In this document: in pieces, positions 10,439 through 36,285 of the stretch | Position numbering within the stretch: position 1 is the first letter of the stretch | Layout of the letters: each line of letters opens with the position of its first letter | Source of the DNA: Deltaproteobacteria bacterium PRO3 | GTDB lineage: Bacteria; UBA10199; DSSB01 | Length of the DNA: 57,013 nt | NCBI GenBank assembly: GCA_030263375.1 | Contig: SZOV01000008.1 | Coordinates: forward strand, 1 to 57,013 | Direction: 5' to 3' | The notes under the pieces: model-generated | What the model was told of the DNA's origin: nothing | The model's input: only the letters and a program-made list of their open reading frames with translations | Databases searched by the model: none | Translations under genes and position numbers: made by a program

Positions 10439-10492
10439 AGCCGCTGCGACAAAGCCATACTCTGAATTATCCAATTCGGCGCGTCTCGGGGC

Positions 10493-10517
10493 GGGCGAAC
10501 ACAAGGTTCGCCCCTAC
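10493..10517. repeat. Palindromic repeat, GTAGGGGCG family, copy 3 (degenerate left end)
   Basis: GGGCGAAC (10493-10500), loop ACAAG, then GTTCGCCC (10506-10513) running into CTAC. It has the same centre as the copies at 26.7 and 29.6 kb, while the left outer arm has decayed. Read on the minus strand, its GTAG end supplies the TAG stop (10516-10514) of the ribonucleotide reductase gene. Confidence 0.7.
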
Positions 10518-25117: not shown

Positions 25118-26707
25118 ATGAATCGGCACTACGATTTCATCGTCTTGGGGAGCGGCATCGCCGGATTGAGCTTCGCCTTGCAGGCGGCCCGCCACGGGAG
25201 CGTCGCGGTCCTCACCAAAAAGAACAGCGCCGAGTCCAACACCAACTACGCCCAGGGCGGCATCGCCTCGGTCGTCTCCCCCTCCGACAACCTCGAATCC
25301 CACGTCAAGGACACCCTCGAGACCGGCGCCGGCCTCTGCCATGAAGACGTCGTCCGCCGCGTCGTCGGCGAGGGACCGCACGTCGTGCAAGAGCTGATCG
25401 ACTTCGGCGTCGAGTTCAGCCGCGGCGAGTCGGGCGACTTCGACCTGGGCCGCGAGGGCGGCCACAGCGCTCGCCGCGTCCTGCACGCCGGGGATTTCAC
25501 CGGGCGGGTGATCGAGCAGGCCCTGCTCGCCTCCGTCAAGGCCCATCCCAACATTCAAATTCTCGAGCACCACTTCGCCGTCGACCTGCTGACCTCCCGC
25601 AAGCTGGGCATCGAGGAAAACCAGCCCAACCGCTGCCTGGGCGCCTACGTCCTCGACACGGTGAACCGCCGCGTCGAGACCTTCACCTCGGGAGTGACCG
25701 TCCTCGCCACCGGAGGGGCCGGCAAGGTCTATCTCTACACTAGCAACCCCGATATCGCGACCGGCGACGGCCTGGCGATGGCCTGGCGCGCGGGGGCCAA
25801 GGTGGCCAACCTCGAGTTCGTCCAGTTCCACCCGACCTGTCTCTATCACCCCAAGGCCAAGTCCTTCCTGCTCTCCGAGGCCCTGCGCGGCGAGGGCGGG
25901 ATCCTGCGCCTGAAGAGCGGCGAGACCTTCATGGAGCGCTACGACCCGCGCAAAGAGCTGGCACCCCGCGACATCGTCGCCCGAGCCATCGATTACGAGC
26001 TGAAAAAACGTGGCGACGATTACGTCCTTCTGGACATGACCCATATCCCCGTCGAATACCTGCGCGAGCGCTTCCCCAACATCTGCGCGAAGCTTTTGGA
26101 ATTCGGCTACGACCTCTGCCGCGAACCGGTGCCGGTGGTCCCCGCCGCCCACTACATGTGCGGCGGCGTGGTTGTGAACGAGCGGGCCGAGACTTCCTTG
26201 AAGAACCTCTTCGCCTGCGGCGAGGTCACCTTCACCGGCCTGCACGGCGGCAATCGCCTGGCCAGCAATTCCCTGCTCGAGGCCGTCGTCTATGCCGACC
26301 TGGCCGCGAAGCACGCCCCCGAGCGCCTCGCGGACGCCGCGGCGCCGAGCGTGGACATCCCCGCCTGGAATCCCGGCGACGCCTCCGATTCCGACGAGGC
26401 GGTGGTCATCAAGCAAAACTGGGATGAGATACGCCACTTCATGTGGAATTACGTCGGAATCGTCCGCACCAACAAGCGCCTGCTGCGCGCGAAAAAGCGG
26501 ATCGAGCTGCTCAAGGAAGAAATCAAAGAATATTACTGGAATTCGGTCGTGACCTCCGACCTGCTGGAGCTGCGCAACATCGCCTGCGTCGCCGAGCTGA
26601 TCATCCTCTCGGCCTTGTGGCGCAAGGAGAGCCGCGGCCTGCACTACAACCTCGACTTCCCCTCCCCCTCCGAGCTCTATCGCCGGGATACGATCCTGGA
26701 GCCGTAG
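25118..26707 (+). CDS. nadB: L-aspartate oxidase
   Basis: The first step of de novo NAD synthesis: it oxidises aspartate to iminoaspartate. A 529-aa flavoprotein of the succinate dehydrogenase/fumarate reductase family. The FAD motif is VLGSGIAGLSFA (8-19); TNYAQGGIA, GGHSARRVLHAGDFTG and HYMCGGVVV are NadB/SdhA active-site stretches. It lacks the SdhA N-terminal membrane-partner features. No nadA or nadC is adjacent. The ATG follows directly after an inverted-repeat arm with no Shine-Dalgarno. The stop TAG is part of a palindromic repeat. Confidence 0.95.
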   Translation: MNRHYDFIVLGSGIAGLSFALQAARHGSVAVLTKKNSAESNTNYAQGGIASVVSPSDNLESHVKDTLETGAGLCHEDVVRRVVGEGPHVVQELIDFGVEFSRGESGDFDLGREGGHSARRVLHAGDFTGRVIEQALLASVKAHPNIQILEHHFAVDLLTSRKLGIEENQPNRCLGAYVLDTVNRRVETFTSGVTVLATGGAGKVYLYTSNPDIATGDGLAMAWRAGAKVANLEFVQFHPTCLYHPKAKSFLLSEALRGEGGILRLKSGETFMERYDPRKELAPRDIVARAIDYELKKRGDDYVLLDMTHIPVEYLRERFPNICAKLLEFGYDLCREPVPVVPAAHYMCGGVVVNERAETSLKNLFACGEVTFTGLHGGNRLASNSLLEAVVYADLAAKHAPERLADAAAPSVDIPAWNPGDASDSDEAVVIKQNWDEIRHFMWNYVGIVRTNKRLLRAKKRIELLKEEIKEYYWNSVVTSDLLELRNIACVAELIILSALWRKESRGLHYNLDFPSPSELYRRDTILEP

Positions 26708-26732
26708 GGGCGAACACAAGGTTCGCCCCTAC
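26704..26732. repeat. Palindromic repeat, GTAGGGGCG family, copy 4 (type copy)
   Basis: Perfect arms GTAGGGGCGAAC / GTTCGCCCCTAC with loop ACAAG. The TAG in its left arm (26705-26707) stops nadB. Read on the other strand, the TAG in its right arm (26731-26729) stops the convergent exported-protein gene. The two genes therefore meet exactly at this hairpin, which could terminate both transcripts. Confidence 0.88.
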
Positions 26733-27878: not shown

Positions 27879-28720
27879 TTGTGCAACCTCGCTTCCAGCC
27901 AGTGTTCGATGTCGCGAAAGACCTTCTCTTTGCCGACCTCGTTGAAGGTCTCGTGGAAATAGCCGGGATAGACCTTGAGCTGCTTGTCCTTGATCTCGAC
28001 GCGTTCGAAGAACTCCCGACTGCCTTCGGCCGCGGTAATCTTGTCGTCGCCGCCGTGGACGATCAAGAGCGGCGTCTTAATTTCCGGCGCCAGGGCCATC
28101 ACCTCGTCGAGGTTTTTCAAAATCTCGGCGCCGAGCTTCAGGCTGATCTTGCGCGCGACCAGGGGGTCTTCCTCGTAGGCGCGGACCACCGCCTCGTCGT
28201 GCGAGACCCAGGAGGCGTGGATGTCGTTGGGGATGAGGACCTCGGGCAGAAAGCGGGAGGCGGCGGTGCCGAGGATTTTCTTCAGGGCCGGGACCGGCAG
28301 GGCCAGTTTCAAATTGGGGCTCGAGAGTACCGCGCCCTTCAGCTCTTTGGGCCTGCGCGCCAGGTAGTTGACCCCGACCTGCCCGCCGAAGGAGTGGGCC
28401 ACGAGAAACAAGGGCAGCTTCGCCTCGCGCTCGCGGACCAGGCCGACGAAGCGCTCGAGGTCGTCGACCAAGTCTTGGAAGCGGTCGGCGTGGGAGCGCG
28501 GGCCGGGGCTTTTGCCATGGCCGCGTTGATCCATCAGGTAGAGCGCCCAGCCTTGGTCGAGGAAGTAGTCGATGAAGAAGCGGTAGCGGCCCGAATGCTC
28601 GCCCAGGCCGTGCAGGACGACGAGGCTCCCCTTCTTTTTTTCGGGAATCCAAGACTGGTAGTACAGCTCATAGCCGTCCCAGGTCTTGAAAAATTGGTGC
28701 GTCGGCTCGGCGGCCTTCAT
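27875..28720 (-). CDS. Monoacylglycerol lipase-like alpha/beta hydrolase
   Basis: A 281-aa hydrolase of the serine aminopeptidase S33/monoglyceride lipase type. VLHGLGEHSGRY is the oxyanion loop, MDQRGHGKSPGPRSHADRF the typical S33 turn, AHSFGG holds the nucleophile Ser, HGGDDKIT the acid and YPGYFHETFNE the His. Start 28720 (MKAAEPTHQF) overlaps the BatE stop as ATGA and has GGGGAG 5 nt upstream. It probably cleaves monoacyl lipids; nothing suggests secretion. Confidence 0.88.
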   Translation of the reverse strand: MKAAEPTHQFFKTWDGYELYYQSWIPEKKKGSLVVLHGLGEHSGRYRFFIDYFLDQGWALYLMDQRGHGKSPGPRSHADRFQDLVDDLERFVGLVREREAKLPLFLVAHSFGGQVGVNYLARRPKELKGAVLSSPNLKLALPVPALKKILGTAASRFLPEVLIPNDIHASWVSHDEAVVRAYEEDPLVARKISLKLGAEILKNLDEVMALAPEIKTPLLIVHGGDDKITAAEGSREFFERVEIKDKQLKVYPGYFHETFNEVGKEKVFRDIEHWLEARLHK

Positions 28721-29469
28721 GGAATCTCCCCAAGGCTCGATCTCTCGACCCAACCTTCCTTCCCGGAGGCGCTTTTGACAAGCGCAAAATCACCCTGCGA
28801 TTTGCGCAGCCGAACCAGGGCGCCGTCCTTCAACTCCTCACGGCTGGCGGCGTCGGGCAGCGGGTTTTCGCGCAGGGCCACGCGGGGGGCGACGATCAGG
28901 GCGGGCTCGGAGAGCCAATCGGGAGGCCGGCGCAGCGCGAATTGGAAGATCCCGTAAACCAGCGGCAAGGCGCAGCAGGCCGCCGCGACGGCGAAGGCGG
29001 GCCGGCGCCTCAGCCGATGGGCGGTCAGGAAGCCGAAGAGCCCCAGGCTGCCCGCGGCGGCCAGGACCAAAGCCTCGGAGGCGTTGAGGGAAAGGCGATA
29101 CCAGGGAATCTTGCGCAGCAGGGCGCGGGGGCCCTCCGCCGGCGGGGTCTTCTCGACCTTGGCCTCGAGGAAGGCCAGGTTGTGGCGGATGTCCGGATCC
29201 CGTGGCGACCAGTCGCGGGCGCCGAGGAAGTAGCGCCGCGCCTGCCCCACCTTGCCGAGGCGCCAGTAGGCGCTGGCGACGTTGTAGTAGAGGTCGCCGT
29301 TGTGGAAGCCGATCTCGCCCAGCTCGTTCCAGGCGCGGATGGCGTTCTCGTAGCGGCCGGCCTGGTAGTCGGCCTGGGCCTGGTTGGCGAGCTCGGCGGG
29401 CGTGACGGCGCGGGCGGAGACGGGAAAGAACGCAAGACAGCCGAGGATGAAGATTTTTCTCAAGTTCAT
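28717..29469 (-). CDS. batE: BatE-like TPR/SH3 protein of the Bat operon
   Basis: A 250-aa protein: signal peptide (1-22), TPR-type helices (about 24-115: ANQAQADYQAGRYENAIRAW, YYNVASAYWRLGKVGQA), two membrane helices (about 135-160, 168-188) and a C-terminal SH3-like domain with GWVERSS. This is the BatE layout. Start 29469 (MNLRKIF) begins the signal peptide; the longer frame passes through the repeat pair 29488-29591. It follows BatD after a gap of roughly 125 bp, the longest in the downstream half of the operon. Confidence 0.82.
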   Translation of the reverse strand: MNLRKIFILGCLAFFPVSARAVTPAELANQAQADYQAGRYENAIRAWNELGEIGFHNGDLYYNVASAYWRLGKVGQARRYFLGARDWSPRDPDIRHNLAFLEAKVEKTPPAEGPRALLRKIPWYRLSLNASEALVLAAAGSLGLFGFLTAHRLRRRPAFAVAAACCALPLVYGIFQFALRRPPDWLSEPALIVAPRVALRENPLPDAASREELKDGALVRLRKSQGDFALVKSASGKEGWVERSSLGEIP

Positions 29470-29487: not shown

Positions 29488-29516
29488 GTAGGGGCGAACC
29501 TTGTGTTCGCTCCTGC
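29488..29516. repeat. Palindromic repeat, GTAGGGGCG family, copy 5
   Basis: Left arm GTAGGGGCGAAC, loop CTTGT, right arm GTTCGCTCCTGC; two bases have drifted. It lies just upstream of the batE start on the minus strand, so it would be a stem in the operon mRNA between the BatD C-terminal segment and batE. Confidence 0.78.
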
Positions 29517-29563
29517 CGGAGCCTGTTTGTAGAAACTCGTTGGACAATGGCAATATCCTTGCC

Positions 29564-29591
29564 CTGGGGCGAACACAAGGTTCGCCCCTAC
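29564..29591. repeat. Palindromic repeat, GTAGGGGCG family, copy 6
   Basis: GGGGCGAAC, loop ACAAG, GTTCGCCCCTAC: right arm intact, left end changed to CCTGGGG. It lies about 48 bp from copy 5 in inverted order, and the stop of the BatD C-terminal frame follows at 29598-29596 in CCCTACG, itself close to a repeat end. Two copies in the same gap suggest local duplication or repeated insertion. Confidence 0.75.
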
Positions 29592-29595
29592 GTCC

Positions 29596-29937
29596 CTACG
29601 TCGCCTTCTCAATCTCTCTTAACAAATCCATCGCCTCCAGCTTCAACATCTTGTCGCTGGGGCGCTTCTCCGCCGCGCCGCCGTACTGCCACATGTCCAG
29701 CTGCTCGAGGAAATACACCGCGCGGCGGTAGGTCTCGATGGGGACGCCGCGGGATTTCAATAAATCCTCGATTTCCATTGGCGTCAGCGCCGTGCCCTTC
29801 ACCAAAAAGCGGTCGCTCAAGTATTGTTTGAAGACCAGGCTCAGCTTCGAGAAGTCCGATTCCCCGCCCAGCCTCTGCACCGCGGCCTTGGCCTGCTTGA
29901 AGGCGCGGCTGCGCTTGCGATCGTCGGCGTGGGCCAG
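29596..29937 (-). pseudogene. C-terminal domain of BatD, separated by an in-frame TAG
   Basis: The 113 codons after the BatD TAG stay in the same frame with no further stop until 29598-29596. They encode a charged helix just after the BatD membrane anchor (LAHADDRKRSRAFKQAKAAV), then a helical domain (FSKLSLVFKQYLSDRFLV, LTPMEIEDLLKSRG, LEQLDMWQYGG). In BatD-like proteins a cytoplasmic C-terminal domain of this kind commonly follows the last helix. A GTG at 29880 could restart translation but has no Shine-Dalgarno. Either the protein is truncated, TAG is read through, the two parts are made separately, or the base is wrong. Confidence 0.65.
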
Positions 29938-31467
29938 CTAGCGGGCGCGGTAGCGGCCCCAGCCGATCAGGCCGAGGAAGCCCAGGGGCGCGCCCAACAG
30001 CAGGGCCCAGGCGGTCGCGCCTTCCCAGGGGCGCAGGGCCTGGCTGTAGAGGACCGCCGCGGCCGGTTTGATCGGCCGCAGGTCGAAGGCCGGCCCCTGC
30101 GCCGCGGCGGGGGCCTTGGAGTCCTCGAGACCCGCCGTTACCAATTTTTCCGAAGAGGGTCCGCCGAGGATGTGGACGGTCAGCGGCGCCGTGCTCAGCT
30201 TCTCGTAGGTCCCCGTGTCCGGGTTGAAGTAGCTGAACTCCTGCGCGGGGATGACCGTCGTCCCCGGCCGTTCGGCGACCAGGGCGTACTCGAAGGTCTT
30301 CTTGCCGGAGAGGCCTTGGAGGCTCTTGTCGAGCTTCACCTCCGGCTTGGAGGGATAGACCTTGAAGTAATCCAGGTTTTGCAAATCCGGGAGGGTGGCC
30401 TCGCGAATATTGCCCTTCCCCGCGACCTCGATCTTCAGGTTGCTGGTCTCGCCCAGGCTGAGGCTGTCCTTGCTGAGCGTGCTCGAGATCGCGAACTGCC
30501 CGACCAGGCCGGTGAAGTCCTGGGGCGGCGGCGGCAGCTCCTTTACGTGAATCCCCACGCTGGCCGCGGTGAAGGTCCGTGGCTTGCTGGTCATGGCGAA
30601 ACCCTGGAAAAAGGGATCGTCGAAGGGCCCGCGTTGGATCCGCACCGGGACGTTGCCCTTCACCTTGGTCTCGCCGGTCTGCAGGTCCCCCGCCTTGGTC
30701 GGGAACAGGGCGAAGCGCCACTCGTTGACGGCGTAGCGCCGGCCGCCGAGCTCGGTCTCGTACTTGCGCTCCTTCATCAGCTCCTCGGTGAAGAAGTCCT
30801 TGAAGTCGGGCAGGCTCAAGGTGGCGCCGGAGATGCTGACGGTGGAGTAGAGCCTGAAGGTGAAGATCACCTGCTGGCCGATGTAGGCCTCTTTGCGGTC
30901 GGTCTCGGCGGTGACGAAGGTGTCCGCGTAGGCCTTCTCGTCGGGCGGGGCCTGCGGGGGCTGGCGGGGCCAGGGCTGGGGCATGCCGGGCAGCTGCGGA
31001 AAGCCCGGCGGCGTCGAGGGGAAGCCGGGCATTTGGGGGAAACTCGGCTGGGTCTGGTAGCCGGGACCTCCCCCGCCGCCCTCCGGAGTGACCCGGACGC
31101 GGACCGGGCCGGCGCTGTATTCCTGCCCTTCGATGTAGACCTTGACCGGGCCGATCTGGAAATCGCCCACGCGGCGCGGGGAGAGGACGTAGGTGAAGGT
31201 CTTGCTCACCGACATCTCGCCGTTGACGATCTCGACGGAGTTCGCCGTCGAGCGGCCGACGACGTCGAAGTTGCCGAGCGGCGGGATCTCAGGCGTGGTC
31301 AGGGCGCTGCCGCCGCGGATCTCGACGGTCATCGTCAGGGTGTCGTCCATCGAGACGGTGTTTTGGTCGACCTCGACGTGGACCGTGGGCTGCGCCAGGG
31401 CCTCGGGCCCCATGCCGAGCCACGCGGCGGTCAGCGCTCCCAAGATGTAAAGACGAAATTTGCGCAT
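29938..31467 (-). CDS. batD: BatD, oxygen-tolerance/aerotolerance operon protein
   Basis: A 509-aa exported, C-terminally anchored protein. Signal peptide 1-25; immunoglobulin-like beta domains (27-125: VEVDQNTVSMDDTLTMTVEI) follow. A Pro/Gln/Gly-rich linker occupies about 131-176. A second set of beta domains runs from about 180 to 450, and the transmembrane helix lies at about 486-503. It ends abruptly at RYRAR, then TAG. It begins 3 nt after the BatC-like gene. In Bacteroides and Leptospira the Bat genes have been linked to oxygen tolerance and stress; the biochemical role remains uncertain. Confidence 0.88.
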   Translation of the reverse strand: MRKFRLYILGALTAAWLGMGPEALAQPTVHVEVDQNTVSMDDTLTMTVEIRGGSALTTPEIPPLGNFDVVGRSTANSVEIVNGEMSVSKTFTYVLSPRRVGDFQIGPVKVYIEGQEYSAGPVRVRVTPEGGGGGPGYQTQPSFPQMPGFPSTPPGFPQLPGMPQPWPRQPPQAPPDEKAYADTFVTAETDRKEAYIGQQVIFTFRLYSTVSISGATLSLPDFKDFFTEELMKERKYETELGGRRYAVNEWRFALFPTKAGDLQTGETKVKGNVPVRIQRGPFDDPFFQGFAMTSKPRTFTAASVGIHVKELPPPPQDFTGLVGQFAISSTLSKDSLSLGETSNLKIEVAGKGNIREATLPDLQNLDYFKVYPSKPEVKLDKSLQGLSGKKTFEYALVAERPGTTVIPAQEFSYFNPDTGTYEKLSTAPLTVHILGGPSSEKLVTAGLEDSKAPAAAQGPAFDLRPIKPAAAVLYSQALRPWEGATAWALLLGAPLGFLGLIGWGRYRAR

Positions 31468-31470
31468 CGC

Positions 31471-32826
31471 CTACCAGTCGTTCTCCGGAGTCCGGGAACG
31501 GCCCATGGCCTCCCGAATCTGTTTATTGCGGATCGCTTCGCTCTTGTCCTCGATCATCTCCAGCCAGCGCTCGGCCTCCTGCTCGCCCGGGCCGGGCTTG
31601 GCCTTGACCCTGCCTTGGCGGCCGCCGCCTTGGCCTTCCTTGGGCGCCTCGCCGGCGGCCTCCAGCTGGCCCTCGAGGTTAGGCTTCTTCTGACCCTGCC
31701 CTGCTTCGCCGCGGTCCTGGGAACCTTGCGAGGTCTCTCCCTGATTTTGCCCCTGGCCCTCGGGGGAATCCTTTTGGGCCTGTCTGTCTCCGGCCTGCTC
31801 GCCTTCGCCGGGTTCCGGTGTTTTCGGCTCGCCCTCGGCTCGATCCGGTTGTTGGCCGGCCTGCGGGCCCTGGGATTTTTGGTCTCCAGACCTTTCCGGC
31901 TCCGCTTGGCCTTGGGATCCGCCCTGGGCCTGAGGCTGCGGCTTTTCGCCCTCGGCGCCCTGGGGCTGGGCCTGCGATCCGGAATCCGGCTTAGAACCTT
32001 GTTGGGCTTGCTTTTGCTTGCCCTGTTCTCCCGCCTCCGCCTGTTTTTGTGGCTCGGGCTGCTGGCCGCTTTGGCCCTCTTGCGGAGGCTTTTCCTGCTC
32101 CGCCTGTGGCGCCTCTTTCTTTTGGTCTTGACCTTGGCCGCCTTGGGCCTGCTGCGAGTCCTGTTGCTCCTGTTTTTGACCGCCCTGCCCTGGCTGCTGT
32201 TGGTCCTGGGGTTTTTGCCCCTGGGATTGGGCCTGGTCTTGTTTTTGCTGGTCCGAACCGGAGCTCTGCTGCTGTTGGTCTTGCTGGCCGCCCTGGGCCT
32301 GTTGTTGCTGTTGTTCGCCTTGTTGGTTCTGCTGCTGTTGCTGTTCTTGTTGTTGCCGCTGGGCCTCCTGCTGCTTCTGCAGCCGGCGCTTGACGAACTC
32401 GAGGTTGAGCTTGGCCTCGGCGTCGTCGGGTTTCAGCTTCAGGGCCTGCTCGTAGGCCTGGATCGACTCCGGCAGCTTGCCCAAGCGGTATTGGGTGTTG
32501 CCGAGATTGTAAAGGGCTTGTTCTTGCTGCGTCGGCGTTCCGGTCTTGACCGCGGCCTCGAAGCTCTCGCGGGCCTTGTCGAAGGCGCCCATCCGGTACT
32601 GCGTCGCGCCCAGGTTGTAGTAGTCTTGGGCGTCGGCGTCGGCCTTCAAGTTTTCCTCGAAGTTTTTTTGGGCCTCCGGGTAGTTCTTCTCCTCGTAGGC
32701 CTTGCGCCCCCGGTATTCCCGCCAAGTGTCCCAAGGACCCGCCCAGGCGCGGACGGGAATCGCGCCCACCGCCGCCAGCGTGAGGGCTAGGATGCCGAGA
32801 AGTTTTAGCGTCCGGTTAATATCCAT
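31471..32826 (-). CDS. batC: BatC-like TPR protein with long Gln/Gly-rich tail
   Basis: A 451-aa exported protein. Signal peptide about 1-29; three TPR units at about 34-140 (DAQDYYNLGATQYRMGAFDK, ALYNLGNTQYRLGKLPE). Residues about 150-395 are a low-complexity region rich in Gln, Gly, Glu and Pro. A short ordered end (EAERWLEMIEDKSEAIRNKQIREAM, 420-445) follows, matching the small conserved C-terminal motif of BatC proteins. The repetitive CAG/GGC codons give the antisense strand a long, meaningless open frame. Overlaps the batB end by 11 bp. Confidence 0.85.
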   Translation of the reverse strand: MDINRTLKLLGILALTLAAVGAIPVRAWAGPWDTWREYRGRKAYEEKNYPEAQKNFEENLKADADAQDYYNLGATQYRMGAFDKARESFEAAVKTGTPTQQEQALYNLGNTQYRLGKLPESIQAYEQALKLKPDDAEAKLNLEFVKRRLQKQQEAQRQQQEQQQQQNQQGEQQQQQAQGGQQDQQQQSSGSDQQKQDQAQSQGQKPQDQQQPGQGGQKQEQQDSQQAQGGQGQDQKKEAPQAEQEKPPQEGQSGQQPEPQKQAEAGEQGKQKQAQQGSKPDSGSQAQPQGAEGEKPQPQAQGGSQGQAEPERSGDQKSQGPQAGQQPDRAEGEPKTPEPGEGEQAGDRQAQKDSPEGQGQNQGETSQGSQDRGEAGQGQKKPNLEGQLEAAGEAPKEGQGGGRQGRVKAKPGPGEQEAERWLEMIEDKSEAIRNKQIREAMGRSRTPENDW

Positions 32827-33835
32827 TGGCGAAATTCAGTCCCTTTTTCGGGCGTCGCGATTCGGAGATCAGGCGTTCCAGCGCCAGGAAGGCCAGCGCG
32901 ATCCCCAGCGGCCAGTAAAAACGGCTCTCCCAGACCTGCTTGCGGGCGGCCTTCAGCTCGCTCAGCTCGAGGGCGCCGCGGACCCCCTTGACGTAGAGCT
33001 GGCGCAGGTCCTCGTCTCCGCTCACCGTTCGCACGTAGGCCCCGCCGGTCTTAAGGGCGAGGTCCTTGAGGGCCTCCTCCTTCAACTTAGATACGACCAT
33101 TTCCCCTTCCGGGTTGGTCTTAAAACCTCCGCCCGGTTCGGGGATGGGGGCCCCCTCCGGGGTGCCGAAGCCCAGGGCGAAGACCTTGATTTTCTTCTCT
33201 TTTAAGGTCTCGATCATCTTGTCGAGCTTTTCGCTGAAATCCTCTCCGTCGGAGAATACCAGAATCGCCTTGGCCGATTCTTTGTCGCTCATCGCCTTGA
33301 TCGCGAGCGAGAGAGCCCCGCTCAGGTCCGTCCCCTGCACGGGGATGGTGTTGGGGCTGAGCTCGTCGACGAACATCTCGAGGGTCCCGTAGTCGATGGT
33401 CAGCGGGGACAGCAGGAAGCTGCGGCCGGCGAAGGCGATCAGGCCGACCCGGTCCCCCGCCAGCATCTGCAAGAGGTCGCGGAGCTTGCGCTTCATCCGT
33501 TCCATCCGCGAGGGCTTGAGGTCCTGGGCCAGCATCGAGTTAGAGACGTCCAGCACCAGCATCAGGTCGGCGCCCTTGAGCGTGACCTCTTCTTCCTTCA
33601 TCCCCCACTGCGGTTCCATCAGGGCGAGGATCATAAAGACGAGGGCCAGGACCTTGAGGCCGTTCTTGAGGGCGATGCGCCAGGGCGCGCGCTGGGGCAT
33701 CAGGTTGGCGCGCAGGGGCTCGTCGGCCAGGGCTCGCCAGGCCTTCTTCCGGCGGTAGGCCTGGTAGAAGAGCAGCGCCAGGAGCAAGGGCACCAGGAAG
33801 AACAGGAAAACCAAGTCGGGGTGGTTGAAGCGCAT
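32816..33835 (-). CDS. batB: BatB, von Willebrand factor A-domain membrane protein
   Basis: A 339-aa protein. Two N-terminal helices (about 8-25, 57-75) precede a periplasm- or cytoplasm-facing VWA domain (about 88-285) with an intact metal-binding MIDAS: DVSNS (95-99), the Thr in GTDLSG, and FSDGED. A last helix near 308-322 anchors the C-terminus. It follows batA with one base between stop and start, and overlaps batC. The MIDAS implies metal-dependent protein binding, probably regulated by the MoxR ATPase upstream. Confidence 0.92.
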   Translation of the reverse strand: MRFNHPDLVFLFFLVPLLLALLFYQAYRRKKAWRALADEPLRANLMPQRAPWRIALKNGLKVLALVFMILALMEPQWGMKEEEVTLKGADLMLVLDVSNSMLAQDLKPSRMERMKRKLRDLLQMLAGDRVGLIAFAGRSFLLSPLTIDYGTLEMFVDELSPNTIPVQGTDLSGALSLAIKAMSDKESAKAILVFSDGEDFSEKLDKMIETLKEKKIKVFALGFGTPEGAPIPEPGGGFKTNPEGEMVVSKLKEEALKDLALKTGGAYVRTVSGDEDLRQLYVKGVRGALELSELKAARKQVWESRFYWPLGIALAFLALERLISESRRPKKGLNFANGY

Positions 33836-33836
33836 C

Positions 33837-34832
33837 CTAGGCCAGCCTCCTCAGCCAGGTCGCCGCGAGCAGGGATTCGAAAAGCAGCAGGCCCAGCCCG
33901 GCGAAGCCGAAATAGGCGTACCACTCCTCGTAGATCTCATAATGCTTGACCTTGGCCTTGGTCTTTTCGAGCTGGCCGATTTCTTTGTAGATGGCCTCCA
34001 GCTTCTTGGTATCGGTGGCGTAGAAGTAGCGCCCGCCGGTGGTCTCGGCGATCTTCTCGAGGGTCTCCTCGTCCATGTCGAGGTTCACGTAGATGAGGCG
34101 ATTGCCGAAGATGCCCGGCTGCGGAAAGGGCACCGGACCCTTGGTGCCGATGCCGATGGTGTAGACCTTGATGCCGAAGGTCTTGGCTATCTCGGCAGCC
34201 TTCTCCGGCGAGACCGATCCGGCGTTGTTGCGCCCGTCGGTCAGCAGGATCACGACGCGGGACTTGCCCGGGAGATCTTTCAAGCGCTTCACCGCCAGTG
34301 CTAGGCCGTCGCCAATCGCCGTGCCGTCTCCGGCGATGCCGATTTCGACGTGGTCCAGAAGCTGGGTCAGGACGTCGTAGTCGAGGGTGAGCGGGCACTG
34401 CGTATAGGCCTCCTCGCCGAAGACCACCATGCCCAGCCGGTCGCCCTTCTGCCCGCGGATGAATTCGGAGACGACCTTCTTGACGACCACCAGGCGGTTG
34501 ACCGCCTCCCCGTCCAGCTTGAAGTCCATCGCCGCCATGCTGCCGGAGGCGTCGATGGCCAGCATGATGTCGATGCCCTCGCTGGTCACCTCGGTCTCGG
34601 CCCGCCCCCGCTGCGGGCGGGCCAGGCCGACGATCAGGCAGGCCAGGGCCAGGGCCATCAGCCAGGAAGGAAGGCGCATCGCCAGGCCGTCGCCCCGCCG
34701 GTACAGCGGCTTCAGGGCCGTGGCCAGGGGAAAGCGGAAGTAACCGCGACCGCGCCGCAGCCGCTCGAGCAGGAGGAGGCCGACCGGGAGGATCAGCGCC
34801 GTCAGGACCCAGGGATAGAGGAAACGGAACAT
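33837..34832 (-). CDS. batA: BatA, von Willebrand factor A-domain membrane protein
   Basis: A 331-aa protein with the same layout as BatB: two N-terminal helices (about 5-20, 52-70), a VWA domain with MIDAS DASGSM, GDGTAIGDG and LLTDGRNN, and a C-terminal helix (about 308-328). ATG 34832 (MFRFLYPW) follows the DUF4381-like stop by one base. BatA and BatB are probably paralogues acting side by side in the membrane. Confidence 0.92.
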   Translation of the reverse strand: MFRFLYPWVLTALILPVGLLLLERLRRGRGYFRFPLATALKPLYRRGDGLAMRLPSWLMALALACLIVGLARPQRGRAETEVTSEGIDIMLAIDASGSMAAMDFKLDGEAVNRLVVVKKVVSEFIRGQKGDRLGMVVFGEEAYTQCPLTLDYDVLTQLLDHVEIGIAGDGTAIGDGLALAVKRLKDLPGKSRVVILLTDGRNNAGSVSPEKAAEIAKTFGIKVYTIGIGTKGPVPFPQPGIFGNRLIYVNLDMDEETLEKIAETTGGRYFYATDTKKLEAIYKEIGQLEKTKAKVKHYEIYEEWYAYFGFAGLGLLLFESLLAATWLRRLA

Positions 34833-34833
34833 C

Positions 34834-35406
34834 CTAGGCGCTCGCCTCCTTTCGGGCCAGGCTCTCGGCGAGGGCCCGGGCACGCCCCTCGGCGACCTGG
34901 GTCATCCAAGCCCGGGCGAGCTTGACGCTCTTCACCAGCTCGTCGCGCGGCGGGACGTATTGGGCGAACTTGGCCATGTCGGCCAACTCGAGCAGGCCGA
35001 CGGCCTCGCGTACCCGGTCGGGGTCGAGCCAGGGCGAGGTCTTAAGCTTGGGGCGCAGCTCCTCGAGGGTGGCCTCGCAGGCCGGGATCTCCAGCTCGCG
35101 CTCGATGAATTCGCGAAACAGGTCGGAGAGGGAGAAGTAGAAGCGCCGCACCTGCCCCGACTCGGCCAAGCGGCTATTCACCAGCTCGTCGAGCTTTTTG
35201 AGGGCCGCCTCCAGCGGCGACAAGGGAACCGCCGCCTCGGCCTTGGCCTTGCGCGGACGCCGCCACAGCGAGCGGAGCAGCAGGAAGATCAAGATCGCCG
35301 CCAACGAGGCGGCCAGGGCCCAGATCCAGCGGACGTCCCAGGCCTGGATGTCCTTCAGGTCGAGGATGTCGGTCATCTCTTCCAGCTTGGGCAGGGGCGT
35401 GGGCAT
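34834..35406 (-). CDS. DUF4381-like membrane protein of the MoxR operon
   Basis: A 190-aa protein: a short soluble N-terminus, one transmembrane helix (about 27-46), and a cytoplasmic helical domain (about 62-165) with FYFSLSDLFREFIERELEIPACEATLEEL, the recognisable pattern of the family found between DUF58 and VWA genes. Similar in style to the BatD C-terminal domain (LSDRF..., LTPxE), which suggests a shared fold. Starts 3 nt after the DUF58 gene ends. Confidence 0.8.
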   Translation of the reverse strand: MPTPLPKLEEMTDILDLKDIQAWDVRWIWALAASLAAILIFLLLRSLWRRPRKAKAEAAVPLSPLEAALKKLDELVNSRLAESGQVRRFYFSLSDLFREFIERELEIPACEATLEELRPKLKTSPWLDPDRVREAVGLLELADMAKFAQYVPPRDELVKSVKLARAWMTQVAEGRARALAESLARKEASA

Positions 35407-35409
35407 GGC

Positions 35410-36285
35410 TTACTGTCGTTTCTCCCGGAAGCGGAAAAATTGCAGCAGCGGGTGGATGTAGTCCTTGCTCTGGTCGATCAGGACCGAGTCGACGCCCAGG
35501 GACTGGAAGGTCCGCTGCGGCGTCAGCAGCAGATCTTGGGCGAGTTCGGCGAATTTCTTCTGAAAGCCCGGGCGCGAGCTGTTCACCCATTGCAGCTCGC
35601 CCGTCTCGGGGTCGCGCCACTTAAGCCAGCCCGCCTTGGGGAACTCCGCCTCGGCGGGGTCGTGGAGCTGGATGCAGACCATGTCGTGGCGGCGCTTGGC
35701 GATGGCCAGGGCGCGCTCGTAGCCCTGGTCGAGGAAGTCGGAGATCAGAAAGCAGATGGAGCGGCGGTGCATGACCCGGATCAGGTATTCGAGGGGAACG
35801 CGGATCTGGGTCTTGGGGTGTTGCGGCTGAAAGCTCAGGATCTCTTGGATGACCCGGTAGACGTGGCCGCGGCCCTTCTTGGCGGGGATGAACTTCTCGA
35901 CCCGGTCGGTGAAGAGGATCAGGCCGACCTTGTCGTTGCTCTTGATCGCCGCGTAGGCCAGGACCGCCGCGACCTCGGCGGCGGCCTCGCGCTTGAGGCG
36001 CTCGCGGGTGCCGAAGTCCAGCGAGGCCGACATGTCGACCAGGATCATGACGGTCATCTCGCGCTCCTCGCGGTAGATCTTCACGAAGGGCCGGCCGCTG
36101 CGCGCGGTGACGTTCCAGTCGATGGTGCGGACGTCGTCGCCGGGCTGGTACTCGCGCACTTCCTCGAACTCCATCCCGCGGCCGCGGAAGGCGCTCTCGT
36201 ACTCGCCGGCGAAGATCTCGTTGGCGAGGTAGTTGGTCTTAAGCTGGATGCGCTTGATCTTTTTTAGTATCTCGGGAGGAAGCAT
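35410..36285 (-). CDS. DUF58 domain protein
   Basis: A 291-aa soluble protein with the DUF58 signature VREYQPGDDVRTIDWNVTARSGRPFVK (43-69) followed by a VWA-like fold beginning ILVDMSASLDFG. The MIDAS sequence DMSAS is close to consensus. DUF58 proteins regularly accompany MoxR ATPases and are thought to be adaptors or targets. The gene is separated from moxR by an inverted-repeat element and has no obvious Shine-Dalgarno next to its ATG. Confidence 0.9.
   Translation of the reverse strand: MLPPEILKKIKRIQLKTNYLANEIFAGEYESAFRGRGMEFEEVREYQPGDDVRTIDWNVTARSGRPFVKIYREEREMTVMILVDMSASLDFGTRERLKREAAAEVAAVLAYAAIKSNDKVGLILFTDRVEKFIPAKKGRGHVYRVIQEILSFQPQHPKTQIRVPLEYLIRVMHRRSICFLISDFLDQGYERALAIAKRRHDMVCIQLHDPAEAEFPKAGWLKWRDPETGELQWVNSSRPGFQKKFAELAQDLLLTPQRTFQSLGVDSVLIDQSKDYIHPLLQFFRFREKRQ

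Follow-up and report, generated by a model that had tools for sequence, protein, structure and literature searches.

An in-frame TAG in a single-copy batD gene is very probably due either to recent nonsense mutation or to an erroneous consensus base

BatD proteins (PF13584) are encoded in Bat (Bacteroides aerotolerance-type) operons. The Bat proteins have been proposed to form a membrane-associated complex, and the BatD protein of Leptospira carries a predicted signal sequence (PMC3557215). In-frame stops have been reported in bacterial genes whose dN/dS lies below 1, in a survey that counted only stops common to two or more genomes (PMC7918605). The batD gene presented here shares with the known Bat systems the domain match, the signal sequence and C-terminal membrane helix of the protein, and the neighbouring VWA, TPR and DUF58 genes; what sets it apart from the BatD of its relatives is one in-frame TAG, placed downstream of the membrane helix. 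The gene resembles the surveyed cases in being constrained and interrupted by a single nonsense codon, but those stops are shared by at least two genomes, while the batD stop was seen in one.

The window, i.e., the whole stretch of DNA analysed, is an entire contig (C8) of 57,013 bases from a 3.55 Mb genome assembled in 198 contigs and rated 100% complete and 2.6% contaminated. The coordinates of the batD region are collected in Table 1. The codons around the stop, read on the minus strand, are CGC GCC CGC TAG CTG GCC CAC; the TAG falls directly after the membrane helix, and 113 sense codons separate it from a second TAG in the same frame. This arrangement, a BatD cut by an in-frame stop with coding-like codons running on behind it, had been described in an earlier note, and both the sequence and the coding tests confirmed it. 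The part before the stop matches PF13584 with 132 bits against a gathering cut-off of 24.1, and the gene is present in a single copy in the genome, whether searched with the tail or with the whole protein. On the strength of its relatives, batD is taken here as one 623-codon gene. Its neighbours constitute a normal Bat set of VWA, TPR, DUF58 and BatE-like genes. In a distant genome (L021 727-3285, minus strand) BatD and a BatE-like protein are joined in one 853-residue frame.

Table 1. Features of the batD region; positions are those of the window.
Feature	Position	Strand	Evidence or remark
batD, one 623-codon gene with one in-frame TAG	29596..31467	-	Pfam BatD PF13584, E 1.3e-38; relatives open full length
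509 codons preceding the stop: signal sequence, BatD extracytoplasmic domains, membrane helix	29941..31467	-	Pfam; signal and helix recognised from the sequence
In-frame TAG; closest relatives have Ser, Ser, Thr here	29938..29940	-	Alignment with relatives
C-terminal domain of 113 codons, presumably cytoplasmic, with five predicted helices; follows the membrane helix	29599..29937	-	dN/dS 0.033; AlphaFold mean pLDDT 89.8, pTM 0.84
Terminal TAG of the batD frame; TAG in the closest relative too	29596..29598	-	Sequence, comparison with relative
BatE-like TPR/SH3 gene	28717..29469	-	Downstream of batD, open
BatC-like TPR	31471-32826	-	Upstream of batD, open
BatB-like VWA	32816-33835	-	Upstream of batD, open
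BatA-like VWA	33837-34883	-	Upstream of batD, open
DUF4381-like	34834-35406	-	Upstream of batD, open
DUF58	35410-36285	-	Upstream of batD, open

The batD frame was searched against its own genome and 59 others, a set in which the species is represented by this one genome. Matches were found in 25 of the 59, none with a stop inside; at the site of the TAG a sense residue is aligned in 23 of them and a local alignment gap falls there in the remaining two. The residue is serine in the two relatives of the same genus and threonine in one of the same family. The alignment of BatD relatives proposed in the earlier note thus revealed an uninterrupted reading frame, and its contrary prediction, that the closest relatives would all stop there and carry an independent second gene, was not borne out. 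The nearest relative, of the same genus, is a Deltaproteobacteria MAG represented by a 6,235-base contig (JADYZQ010000186.1), in which the frame is open for 623 residues and has at this site a serine codon differing by one base. The two BatD proteins are 95% identical, and an ungapped DNA match of 3,230 bases at 92.8% spans the gene. When the contigs of the named genomes were scanned with the tail, the sole return was the same-genus relative. Wherever a relative extends over this region, the tail is fused to BatD; one relative (L009) is truncated by the end of its contig. The stop could be common to the species.

The tail is coding beyond chance. Its hexamer score is 0.96–0.98, compared with 1.07–1.08 over the last 50 codons ahead of the stop, and it is 96% identical to that of the nearest relative. 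The dN/dS of the tail against this relative (Table 1), compared with 0.112 before the stop, indicates strong purifying selection on the tail. With a third genome as outgroup to the window and the nearest relative, eight synonymous and no nonsynonymous changes in the tail could be assigned to the window's branch (three nonsynonymous changes were unassignable), whereas around 45 nonsynonymous changes would be expected without constraint along the entire branch. The lack of assignable nonsynonymous changes implies that the stop is very recent, or not real, or tolerated by read-through, and the constraint alone does not choose among the three.

This assembly contains sporadic nonsense codons, and they are not all of one type. 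A scan for in-frame stops that are flanked on either side by a hexamer coding signal and have no ATG close by covered 1.99 of the 3.55 Mb and returned 23 candidates, including TGA cases in L166 and L145. Most of the candidates were neighbouring genes whose GTG or TTG start lies one or two codons past the stop; one of those set aside (L065 3013-3015) was recognised from its translation as a mtnA-like/ilvE-like gene pair. Besides batD, one further conserved gene, with a signal-like N-terminus (L066 1962-2858, minus strand), is interrupted by an in-frame TGA at a position occupied by TGG in three relatives, so that such stops are confined neither to TAG nor to batD.

Taken together, these data point to one batD gene in which a single base substitution created the TAG, and we consider it very probable that this is either a recent nonsense mutation or an error in the consensus base. 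The four options raised in the earlier note (truncation, base error, amber read-through and a split gene) are thereby narrowed to truncation by a recent nonsense mutation and base error, which we regard as about equally likely. Read-through and a split gene are both disfavoured: the stop is missing from every relative examined, searches for a suppressor tRNA and for PylS came back negative, the genome encodes RF1, and the frame has TAG as its own terminator. A separately translated tail could re-initiate at GTG 29880, 19 codons past the stop. The earlier note had credited this GTG with no Shine-Dalgarno sequence; an AAGG does lie 5 nt upstream, but it belongs to ordinary codons (AAG GCC GCG GTG). 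Initiation at the GTG would moreover cost the predicted domain the greater part of its first helix, and the fusion of the tail to BatD in every relative covering it also speaks against independent translation, which we consider very improbable.

It is just as improbable that an amino acid is inserted at the TAG, giving some full-length BatD. Such decoding would fit the intact and constrained tail, the published in-frame stops in bacterial genes whose dN/dS is below 1, and a transposase-like gene of the same genome (L107, which came from a family search and not from the scan) whose in-frame TAG corresponds to Trp in its paralogue. However, the constraint can predate the stop and therefore says nothing for read-through, the published cases had to share their stop in two or more genomes, and an orthologous stop was found in none of the 25 matched genomes, all of other species. 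The search for an amber-suppressor tRNA suggested in the earlier note gave a negative result: among the 45 Rfam tRNA matches in the genome, ARAGORN calls on the fetched loci included no CTA, TTA or TCA anticodon. This absence is not airtight, since the assembly is split into 198 contigs and at least one tRNA that should be there (Pro-TGG) did not turn up. The best PylS matches reached 25.6 and 20.8 bits against a cut-off of 178. TAG is a normal stop in this genome, as it terminates 309 of the 1070 called genes in the 1.99 Mb scanned (TAA 411, TGA 350) and the batD frame as well. We likewise give very little credence to a stop that is real and fixed in the species, with low-level read-through or re-initiation keeping some of the C-terminal domain, which would make the stop a means of setting the dosage of the Bat complex.

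The preferred reading, a single batD of a Bat operon with one substitution that turned the sense codon just past the membrane helix into TAG, would place the change very recently in the lineage or in the assembled consensus only. If the stop exists in the cells, RF1 should terminate translation there. The predicted product of 509 residues would keep the extracytoplasmic part and the membrane helix and lack the C-terminal helical domain, so that BatD function would probably be lost in part or altogether. The case is ordinary, with a single gene, a single stop and intact copies in relatives; it provides no evidence for amber recoding and carries little weight beyond annotation. In annotation, the region should stand as one batD that may carry a nonsense lesion and should not be divided into a truncated BatD and a new small gene.

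The comparison also shows that BatD recurrently includes the C-terminal helical domain and that this domain is under constraint. Its five-helix structure is predicted with confidence (Table 1). The domain had no match in Pfam or NCBIfam, and a Foldseek search with the tail gave no PDB match at E 0.001 or better. The similar domain that the earlier note ascribed to the neighbouring DUF4381-like protein (190 residues, unnamed by Pfam or NCBIfam at the thresholds used) was recovered by hhalign with a probability of 64% and P 7e-5, a weak likeness that is suggestive only. Lying next to the membrane, the domain may bind other products of the operon.

Some further features of the genome were recorded. 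A degenerate tRNA-like sequence with a CAT anticodon (L084 2205-2269), covered by one weak Rfam match, lies near a normal tRNA-Met. A 23-base imperfect palindrome, GGGGCGAACACAAGGTTCGCCCC, was counted 71 times in the genome when up to one mismatch was allowed, against 0 for the reversed control, and occurs in the window at 29488-29591, 26707-26729 and 10492-10514. Several copies form close inverted pairs, a REP/BIME-like arrangement, and the copy adjoining the end of batD is inverted in the nearest relative. Possible partners of this palindrome are three transposase-like genes of the Y1 type (PF01797), namely L105, L106 and L107.
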